From: a virus
IMG/VR virus record: IMGVR_UViG_3300027760_000040
Coordinates: 1-42,629 of that record
Length of the DNA: 42,629 bases
Strand: one strand, 5' to 3'
Position numbers and translations under genes: made by a program. Under the pieces are notes generated by a model. The model was not told the DNA's origin, did no database searches, and saw nothing but the letters and a program-made list of their open reading frames with translations. Shown in pieces: positions 26,497 through 28,467 of this stretch (position 1 is the first letter of the stretch; each line of letters opens with the position of its first letter).

Positions 26497-26750
26497 TTGA
26501 ATTTATTCATTCTGTTGCGGAGGTCTTGGATTGCCTTCTCCCCGCGGGTTTTACGAATCTTATCGGACATATCGTCCCACCACTCTCTAGCACCCCCAAA
26601 GCCTCTTTCATCTTTCTTTTTCTTGAAGCGCTGTATCCACTCTCTAGCTTCGCAATCTCTCATATGCTCAATAGTTTCGGAGCTGATTGTGACATTTGAT
26701 GGTGCGAGTCTTTCTGTAGGTACAGCTTTTTCCCTTTTTTGCGGCTTCAT
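26493..26750 (-). CDS. Basic helical protein (85 residues)
   Basis: The product has a basic start, then HMRDCEAREWIQRFKKKKDE and a final GEKAIQDLRNRMNKFK. The CEAR-helix and RG-K-A-LR strings are seen in small phage proteins next to methyltransferase and resolvase genes. I recall a DUF7696-like pattern but cannot confirm it. It may bind DNA. ATGA overlaps occur at both ends. Confidence 0.65.
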   Translation of the reverse strand: MKPQKREKAVPTERLAPSNVTISSETIEHMRDCEAREWIQRFKKKKDERGFGGAREWWDDMSDKIRKTRGEKAIQDLRNRMNKFK

Positions 26751-27490
26751 TGGTTACTCAAGATTTCCCAAGCTCTTGCTGCCACTCTTGGAACTTGTGC
26801 GTTTCCAATGGCTTTAATTCTGTCCACTTGTCCGGGAAGTCCATTAAAAGCTCTACATAATCCGGGTCGAAGTAATGTTCGCAATCCTTGCTCGTTCTTA
26901 TCCACTCCGTTGTAAAGCTCGCCCTGTAATCTCGGCTTCCCCAAAATCTTTTTGTTGCCGCGCCTCTCCACATGCTTGTAACGGGAGTTGGTAGCCAGCA
27001 CCCAAATTCGTTCTCTCCGATGGGGCAATCCAATGGAATCTGCTCCCAGCACTCCCCATTTCGCATCAAACCCCATTGCGGCCAAGTCTCCGAGAACTCG
27101 TCCAAGTCCCCTAGAAGTGAGCATTGGTGAGTTTTCCACAAATGCATATCGTGGCTGTACCTCGCAAATGATCCTTGCCATTTCTCCCCACATTCCGCTT
27201 CGCTCTCCGTCAATTCCTGCGCCTTTTCCTGCTGCGCTGATGTCCTGGCACGGAAATCCTCCAGATACAACGTCAACAATTCCTCTCCAAGGTTTTCCGT
27301 CAAAAGTTTGAACGTCATCCCAAATGGGGAAAGGCGGGAGAAGTCCGTCATTTTGTCTTGCGGCAAGTACGCTTGCTGGATAGGGTTCCCACTCGACTGC
27401 ACAGACGATTCTCCATCCAAGCAGATGTCCCCCAAGTATTCCTCCACCAGCGCCCGCGAAAAGAGCCAACTCATTTAAATTCTCCTTCAT
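26747..27490 (-). CDS. C5 cytosine-specific DNA methyltransferase
   Basis: The product has 247 residues, short for this family (about 300 or more), mainly because the target-recognition part is small (about 170-210). Motif I is ELALFAGAGGG (7-17), motif IV SGGFPCQDIS with the catalytic Cys81, motif VI VENS (118-121; usually ENV), motif VIII LPHRRERIW (155-163), motifs IX/X GLPGQVDRIKAIGNAQVP (217-234). It transfers methyl groups to cytosine C5 in DNA, probably to protect phage DNA from restriction. The ATG overlaps the helicase stop (ATGA) and has no Shine-Dalgarno of its own, so translation depends on coupling. Another gene lies wholly inside it in the +1 frame. Confidence 0.9.
   Translation of the reverse strand: MKENLNELALFAGAGGGILGGHLLGWRIVCAVEWEPYPASVLAARQNDGLLPPFPIWDDVQTFDGKPWRGIVDVVSGGFPCQDISAAGKGAGIDGERSGMWGEMARIICEVQPRYAFVENSPMLTSRGLGRVLGDLAAMGFDAKWGVLGADSIGLPHRRERIWVLATNSRYKHVERRGNKKILGKPRLQGELYNGVDKNEQGLRTLLRPGLCRAFNGLPGQVDRIKAIGNAQVPRVAARAWEILSNQ
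26758..27474 (-). CDS. Overprinted gene nested within the methyltransferase gene (+1 frame)
   Basis: The product has 238 residues, starts MSWLFSRALVEEYLGDICLD and ends FQEWQQELGKS. It lies entirely within the methyltransferase gene, shifted by +1. Its ATG at 27474 has a perfect AAGGAG seven bases upstream, formed by codons 2-3 of the methyltransferase. The predicted protein has an ordinary composition, with GEELLTLYLEDFRARTSAQQ, FSETWPQWGLMRNGECWE, WLPTPVTSMW and VELLMDFPDKWTELKPLE. I recall free-standing or overlapping phage proteins of this type (ending EWLMG-P-GWT) beside Dcm-type genes, so it may be a conserved dual-coded family. I cannot verify this here. Function is unknown; a partner or regulator of the methyltransferase is a fair guess. 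If translation is absent, this is a chance open frame. Confidence 0.6.
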   Translation of the reverse strand: MSWLFSRALVEEYLGDICLDGESSVQSSGNPIQQAYLPQDKMTDFSRLSPFGMTFKLLTENLGEELLTLYLEDFRARTSAQQEKAQELTESEAECGEKWQGSFARYSHDMHLWKTHQCSLLGDLDEFSETWPQWGLMRNGECWEQIPLDCPIGENEFGCWLPTPVTSMWRGAATKRFWGSRDYRASFTTEWIRTSKDCEHYFDPDYVELLMDFPDKWTELKPLETHKFQEWQQELGKS

Positions 27491-28467
27491 GATGCTAAAT
27501 GTGGATAGTTAATAAAAAACTGCGCCTCTGAACCGTACTCAGCAATAAATTGCCCAGCATCTCTATGTCTCCATAGGCTTACAATAGGTTCTCCGTCTGC
27601 TACTCCCTCGTAGTTCCTTTGCTTTCTGCACAGCAAGTAGCAGTCAGGCTCAGTCTGTCGGGTGCTCATAATGCCTTTGGCTCGGTAATCATCTTCCTTA
27701 GCTTTATTCCGCCAAACCATAAATAAATTGTCCACTTGGTCGGTGATGGAGCCACTACCCTTGGTGTCGTGCTTGTCGGGCAAGTCGGTCTCTTTGGCGG
27801 GTTTTTTAAGATGATGCACAAGGTGAATGTGGATATTGCAGTCTTTAGCCAATGCACAAAGTTGGTCAACAAATGCTTTCTGTCCGTTGTAATCATCTTC
27901 ATTCTTGACACATTTCATAAGAGAGTCAATAAATACATGAGTTATTTTAAGCTCTTGTGCACAATATTTAACCATACCCAGTACGGTTTCTGGGCGTGCG
28001 GTTCCTGTTTGGTCGTACAACCACATCTTCTGCTTAGTCCAATGCCCAAAATCATCATAAAGCTCTTCCAAGGCGGTTATGCCTTCGTCAGTCTGATATT
28101 CAGGCGCATTGGGGTTTGTCCCTGAGAACATCCGGATCAGCCTCTGAATGGTCACTAAAGGCTTCATCTCAAACGATGCTATGCAGACACGTTCGCCTTG
28201 CCCCAAAAGGGATAGAGCAATCTGGCTCGTCACGTCAGTCTTGCCGTGGCCATTCTGACCAGCCCAAACCGTCACCTCAGACGGGCGAAAGTAAAAGTTC
28301 TCATTGGTCTTTGGCCAAGGCAGGAAAGTTTTGGGTTCGGATAACTTCTGTCTCAGTCTAGCCTTAGCATCATCCACAAAATCTGCCGCAGGTTTGACCT
28401 TTGTTTGAGCTTCTGTATCTTCTAGGTATGCTTCAAAGTCAATGCTGTCATCTAAAAATTCAGGCAC
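27487..28467 (-). CDS. DnaB/RecA-like replicative helicase
   Basis: The product has 326 residues from a GTG at 28467 (GGAGAG seven bases upstream). After a 50-residue leader the core has Walker A AGQNGHGKT (G70-T77), IASFEMKP, Walker B THVFIDSLM (D181), IHLVHHLKK (motif H3-like) and a glycine-rich GSGSITDQVDNLFMVWR (motif H4-like). This is the DnaB/gp4-type hexameric helicase core without the DnaB N-terminal domain. It unwinds the fork. Its stop overlaps the methyltransferase start. Confidence 0.85.
   Translation of the reverse strand: MPEFLDDSIDFEAYLEDTEAQTKVKPAADFVDDAKARLRQKLSEPKTFLPWPKTNENFYFRPSEVTVWAGQNGHGKTDVTSQIALSLLGQGERVCIASFEMKPLVTIQRLIRMFSGTNPNAPEYQTDEGITALEELYDDFGHWTKQKMWLYDQTGTARPETVLGMVKYCAQELKITHVFIDSLMKCVKNEDDYNGQKAFVDQLCALAKDCNIHIHLVHHLKKPAKETDLPDKHDTKGSGSITDQVDNLFMVWRNKAKEDDYRAKGIMSTRQTEPDCYLLCRKQRNYEGVADGEPIVSLWRHRDAGQFIAEYGSEAQFFINYPHLAS

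Follow-up and report, generated by a model that had tools for sequence, protein, structure and literature searches.

Locus organization and start sites

The window analysed here, a virus record from IMG/VR (IMGVR_UViG_3300027760_000040, 42,629 nucleotides), carries on its minus strand a C5-cytosine DNA methyltransferase (MTase) gene of 247 aa in frame 0 (26747..27490; "alpha-like"), with motifs I-VIII in residues 1-172. A second ORF of 238 aa ("beta-like"; 26758..27474, minus strand) lies wholly within this gene in the +1 frame, as a first-pass annotation of the sequence had described, and covers ~96% of it, with ~740 bases of the window read in two frames. Upstream, a DnaB-like helicase gene (27487..28467, minus strand; phrog_239 / phrog_19) is translationally coupled to the MTase gene through an ATGA overlap, and a RusA-like resolvase gene lies downstream. 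Farther along the same strand, a match to the int-alpA RNA family (RF02996; 29459-29525), just over the gathering score, is located upstream of a primosomal-protein-like gene.

The start region (27472..27490, minus strand) is compact: the MTase ATG (27490-27488) overlaps the helicase stop codon (TGA, 27489-27487) and has no Shine-Dalgarno sequence of its own, and the nested ATG (27474-27472) follows 16 nt later, immediately preceded by a TAA in its own frame. Between the two ATGs, within MTase codons 2-3, sits a perfect AAGGAG (27482..27487, minus strand) with a 7-nt spacer to the nested ATG. The first-pass annotation had reported both the Shine-Dalgarno arrangement and the coupling to the helicase stop, and had taken the DNA between the start codons to be tuned for the nested gene. 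The arrangement itself is confirmed in the window, and four other loci (L012, L026, L044 and L058) share it, with one refinement for the relatives: at 147 of 180 non-redundant loci, an MTase-frame ATG, GTG or TTG lies exactly 4 nt ahead of the nested ATG (NTGAATG), a layout from which one ribosome site, or one terminating ribosome, could start both chains. A minority of 23 loci, including the window, have TTA at that position, with 13-22 nt usually separating the MTase start from the nested ATG downstream. At 165 of the 180 loci an in-frame stop stands immediately before the nested ATG, and in 64 an upstream ORF of 60 codons or more terminates at this stop.

Conservation of the open +1 frame

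For the window MTase alone, synonymous codon shuffles gave P = 0.0013 for a +1 ORF of this length. Homologous nested ORFs are present in related loci, with 539 viral stretches matched when the nested protein was the sole query. To avoid the bias of such a query, an independent set of loci was gathered by searching with the MTase protein alone, which yielded 79 usable loci (MTase identity 54-85%; L144 was left out only because its aligned start fell on a stop, and has both frames intact). The +1 frame was open across 93-100% of the MTase in all 79, with no interior +1 stop where 419 were expected from synonymous shuffles of the MTase codons, and the +2 frame of these loci held 11-26 stops. Nearly all of ~170 further loci (viral, prophage, plasmid and phage) have an open +1 frame too. 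The nested ORF was found in +1 over the MTase in 80 bacterial and archaeal genome loci, at nested identities down to 27%, and no standalone nested gene was seen among those 80.

At four loci (L175, L194, L200 and L205) a stop interrupts the MTase frame and the nested frame is open, which could reflect decay, sequencing error or a true split; the stop in L194 sits right after motif VIII.

Selection on the two frames

Conservation of the MTase necessarily carries over to some extent into the overlapping frame, and we measured this by-product with synonymous shuffles of MTases scored against the nested-protein profile; our claims of conservation rest on that null. Shuffled MTases of the closer relatives reached ~100 bits or more, and real sequences about twice as much. 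With MTase conservation by itself thus supplying about half of the score, unadjusted tblastn or HMM similarity overstates the case and was not accepted as proof of a nested gene. Against this null, the nested-profile score stood at z = 4.8-13 in every genome locus scored, and at z = 18 in the window. Residue by residue, the strongest excess conservation in the nested frame fell in residues 1-10 and 201-238: the consensus was matched in 84% of distant loci (32% expected) for residues 1-10, 66% (26% expected) for residues 201-210 and 81% (33% expected) for residues 211-220, and the initial methionine was 100% conserved (48% expected). Outside the C-terminal region, selection also acts on the central block and the N-terminus.

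In 22 close relatives whose variable regions could be aligned, we then classed changes by their effect on the MTase and on the nested protein. Over the whole overlap, NN/NS, which reports selection on the nested protein, was 0.46 (0.44-0.49), i.e., purifying, and 0.47 with transitions only. SN changes were much rarer than SS changes, in the transitions-only comparison included, and MTase third positions are constrained in the overlap. Neighbouring genes were unsuited as a codon-rate control, with too few comparable homologues within the loci. By these sequence-based measures, the nested 238-codon ORF is a real, widely conserved gene under purifying selection, and the conserved dual-coded two-gene unit anticipated from the window alone is strongly supported. 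None of the three outcomes that the first-pass annotation had named as contradicting it (no nested homologues, frequent +1 stops, unconstrained third positions) was observed.

The balance of constraint changes along the gene. MTase NN/SN against nested NN/NS was 0.20 vs. 1.10 for nested residues 1-65, 0.21 vs. 0.71 for residues 66-110 and 0.27 vs. 0.40 for residues 111-165, then 0.60 vs. 0.29 (both below 1) for the variable region (nested residues 166-200; 26875..26979, minus strand) and 0.41 vs. 0.29 for the C-terminal motif IX region. Residues 1-65 give no NN/NS signal in close pairs (1.10), whereas the distant-locus test is positive for residues 1-10. In a reciprocal test, with nested codons shuffled synonymously, the MTase frame appeared selected in residues 1-168 (approximately) and at motif X, and not in residues 171-200. 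As estimated from these ratios and shuffles, the MTase frame is the more constrained of the two up to motif VIII, and the nested frame beyond it.

Content of the two predicted chains

The frame-0 protein matches the Pfam DNA_methylase family (PF00145, E = 9.9e-31) over residues 9-181, and its HMM match to M.HhaI reaches only M.HhaI residues 15-183. GFPC, EN and R-x-R are invariant in this frame. Motif X (DRIKAIGNAQVP) lies near the C-terminus, still in frame 0 of the window, and its DRxKAIGNxQVP is conserved beyond the nested-driven expectation, so that the large chain has motifs I-VIII and X. Between these parts, residues 171-200 are poorly conserved, and 171-222 largely unconserved and of low confidence. 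AlphaFold2 (AF2) models give a pLDDT of ~90 or more for most of residues 1-170, ~40 for 175-222, which are thus predicted to be unfolded, and mid-80s at the motif X helix. The closest structure found by Foldseek is M.HhaI, over ~180 residues, and AF2 and Foldseek together revealed the large domain only, with no recognisable folded small domain in the MTase frame.

The nested protein comprises, in order, a conserved start (MSWLFSQALV), a central W-P-x-W-G-x-M-R-N-G block, a PTP segment, the variable region and a motif IX-like C-terminus (residues 201-238, DPDYVELLMDFPDKWTELKPLE..KFQEW; 26758..26874, minus strand), this last part being supported by residue-wise conservation, NN/NS and HHalign. 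Within it, NPxWVEWLMGWPxGWT matches MTase motif IX (HHalign probability 95.2%, E = 2.6e-8, over a match of only ~25 residues), the targets being motif IX of single-frame actinophage MTases, which have IX and X in frame, together with the split mycobacteriophage proteins gp79 and gp86 described below. Judged from this profile comparison, the nested C-terminus is homologous to motif IX. The nested protein has no significant Pfam or NCBIfam family, HNH included, and sequence comparison with the PDB gave nothing below E = 0.06. Modelled by itself with 100 homologues, the nested chain came out poorly in AF2 (pLDDT 55, pTM 0.22), so no fold supports the identity of the protein, and the model was dropped as a structure-search query.

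Of 67 nested proteins, 66 match phrog_1008 (best E = 5.8e-44), which is their main PHROG and bears the label "DNA methyltransferase". This label appears to derive from the overlapping gene, the members tested being the +1-frame product and not the catalytic MTase. Together with the "g62 internal gene" of Paenibacillus phage Lily, phrog_1008 shows that the similar proteins over dcm genes of other phages, which the first-pass annotation had mentioned, do exist.

Related layouts in other phages

Two pairs of mycobacteriophage "DNA methylase" genes, gp80/gp79 of LochMonster (L253) and gp87/gp86 of Jordennis (L257), each represent one C5-MTase split across overlapping frames: gp79 and gp86 start inside gp80 and gp87, in the same +1 frame as the nested gene, and carry the variable region, motif IX and motif X. 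Gordonia phages combine a single-frame MTase, with motif IX in the MTase frame, and a +1 ORF that is still conserved in part. Among actinophages, the single-frame MTases of L252, L254, L255 and L256 retain a portion of the nested ORF in +1. Third-position GC in the overlap of actinophage MTases falls below that of the remaining gene, with the clearest differences in Leonard (0.68 vs. 0.86) and in the split LochMonster and Jordennis genes.

Four HhaI-like MTases from phages of Gram-positive hosts, Lactococcus 4268 (L264), C. difficile phiC2 (L266), Lactobacillus SA-C12 (L267) and Streptococcus P0091 (L259), were initially treated as negative controls and had to be rejected as such, their +1 ORFs (141-161 codons) exceeding the null (0/300 shuffles as long); the Buttiauxella and Caulobacter phage MTases chosen for the same purpose did behave as negatives. 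We treat the four as an extension of the set. Motif IX is in frame in three of them, and orf14 of 4268 ends before motif IX. Their +1 ORFs end in a SLSDILEENVDEKYFLS-like sequence that resembles the in-frame segment after motif VIII of other C5-MTases. BLASTP found no alignment between one of these +1 segments and an in-frame MTase. The copy of this ORF in P0091 (gp40) is annotated as a DNA methyltransferase. Since a +1 ORF is kept despite an in-frame motif IX in Gordonia and Gram-positive phages, supplying motif IX may not be all that the nested protein does, and the Gram-positive examples suggest that the phenomenon may extend beyond the motif IX explanation.

A candidate two-polypeptide methyltransferase

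Because the nested protein carries a variable region and a motif IX that are absent from the MTase frame, it is best read as belonging to the same enzyme, as a second subunit and most likely as the half that recognises DNA, which the frame-0 MTase would otherwise be missing. The first-pass annotation had supposed an unknown partner, which is probably wrong on the same grounds. We therefore favor, with a probability of roughly three in four, a locus whose overlapping frames encode a C5-cytosine DNA MTase made of two polypeptides, as in M.EcoHK31I, its heterodimer and activity being predicted from sequence comparison. Frame 0 would provide the catalytic chain, with motifs I-VIII (AdoMet binding, the PCQ nucleophile, ENV) and motif X, and the +1 frame a second chain with motif IX and the variable, presumably target-recognising region, the exact recognition domain being placed tentatively. 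One mRNA would serve both chains, from starts separated by 4 nt in most relatives and by 16 nt in the window, provided that the nested protein is made; the two would then assemble into one active MTase that may mark, and so perhaps protect, the phage's own DNA. Motif IX does lie on the small chain with no recognisable counterpart in the large chain, the arrangement that characterizes the M.EcoHK31I type.

A real and selected nested gene could also encode an independent partner (e.g., a regulator, inhibitor, repair factor or counter-defence protein), its likeness to motif IX being a relic or a coincidence. Such a protein would fit with the absence of a Pfam or NCBIfam family and of a PDB match below E = 0.06, with the selection on the central block and N-terminus outside the motif IX region, and with the persistence of part of the +1 ORF where the phage MTase has motif IX in frame. 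We nonetheless consider it unlikely, as the motif IX match is specific and located where the MTase frame has none, the split MTases put their C-terminal half in this very +1 frame, and none of the 80 genome loci had the nested gene without an MTase. Alternatively, ribosomal frameshifting might fuse the frames, the catalytic part being read in frame 0, the variable region and motif IX in +1, and motif X in frame 0 again, and the pieces so joined do reproduce the order of the single-frame actinophage MTases. However, two shifts would be required, and the strongly selected nested start and residues 1-10 (M1 at 100% vs. 48% expected), the in-frame stop directly before the nested ATG (165/180 loci) and the Shine-Dalgarno sequence in the window indicate separate initiation, which makes a fusion very improbable. 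Finally, the view that codon constraint and composition of the MTase generate the nested ORF as a side effect, from which no protein is made, deserves next to no credence, for although MTase conservation accounts for about half of the nested-profile score in shuffles, this reading is refuted, barring an undetected artefact common to the loci, by the stop counts (0 vs. 419), scores far above the shuffled nulls, the rarity of SN relative to SS changes (transitions only too) and the conserved start context.

Comparison with known systems

Lee, Kam and Shaw are said to have reported in 1995 that the small chain of M.EcoHK31I is encoded within the large-chain gene, in another frame. If this layout is right, the dual-coded MTase proposed here shares it, with the nested gene in +1 in all loci scored, and differs in the extent of the overlap (~96% of the MTase gene) and in the near-identical start site (4 nt apart in most relatives). 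The MTases considered here are from phages and prophages, and a non-systematic look at annotations noted no restriction enzyme among the annotated neighbours.

M.EcoHK31I (YGGCCR) is a two-polypeptide C5-MTase whose large chain bears motifs I-VIII and X and whose small chain bears motif IX alone, with the predicted recognition domain assigned to the large subunit (PMC3404938). At the level of motif layout, the locus in the window shares this split (I-VIII + X / IX). Constraint on its variable region looks stronger in the nested frame, a tentative placement of recognition that differs from the large-subunit assignment. M.AquI (CYCGRG) is an alpha/beta C5-MTase split between motifs VIII and IX, with IX and X on the small chain (PMC3404938). 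Both systems are thus split C5-MTases, with motif X on the small chain in M.AquI and kept in the catalytic chain here; the mycobacteriophage pairs gp80/gp79 and gp87/gp86 are nearer to the M.AquI layout.

Out-of-frame ORFs in phage DNA methylase genes can also be mobile, as in the hidden HNH insertion of the ShiLan type, which uses the third frame and is confined to an inserted segment (PMC11855218). The nested ORF described here spans the MTase core itself in the +1 frame, and an HNH homing insertion was rejected, with no significant Pfam, NCBIfam or PDB match and no inserted segment. A further parallel is LILY_63 of Paenibacillus phage Lily, the "g62 internal gene", likewise a +1 ORF within an MTase gene and ending in NPNYCELIMGFPIKWTDLDH; it is shorter (163 aa), begins deeper in the MTase gene, and was annotated without a proposed function.

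Distribution, annotation and significance

Overall, ~250 loci were fetched, and more exist in collections. They range from Pseudomonadota prophages, Verrucomicrobia and Planctomycetes to Nostoc and Bacteroides plasmids, an archaeal metagenome-assembled genome and actinophages. The kind of system is already known, as M.EcoHK31I and M.AquI are two-polypeptide C5-MTases; its new features are the nearly complete overlap, starts in tandem and a broad distribution, and no published description of a dual-coded phage MTase family was found in the literature searched. At two loci, L002 (XAI65183) and L007 (NVP1236O_59), the nested frame is annotated as a gene and the overlapping MTase is missed, and E. 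coli RefSeq records show the opposite.

It is tempting to speculate, though we hold this only tentatively, that +1 dual coding is an old and general feature of phage C5-MTases, a large share of which would be obligate heterodimers with the recognition half overprinted on the catalytic half, and with recognition domains swapping or changing length while both frames stay open. On the two-polypeptide reading, many MTases of phages and prophages that annotations present as whole single enzymes would each make up one half of a two-part enzyme, the second half being labelled in databases as a methyltransferase or a hypothetical protein, or not labelled at all, and a recoded synthetic construct of the annotated gene would destroy the second chain and give a false negative. 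This long and widely conserved dual-coded region is also a good system for studying the co-evolution of two proteins on one DNA, and for asking how recognition domains get exchanged when each base serves two frames.
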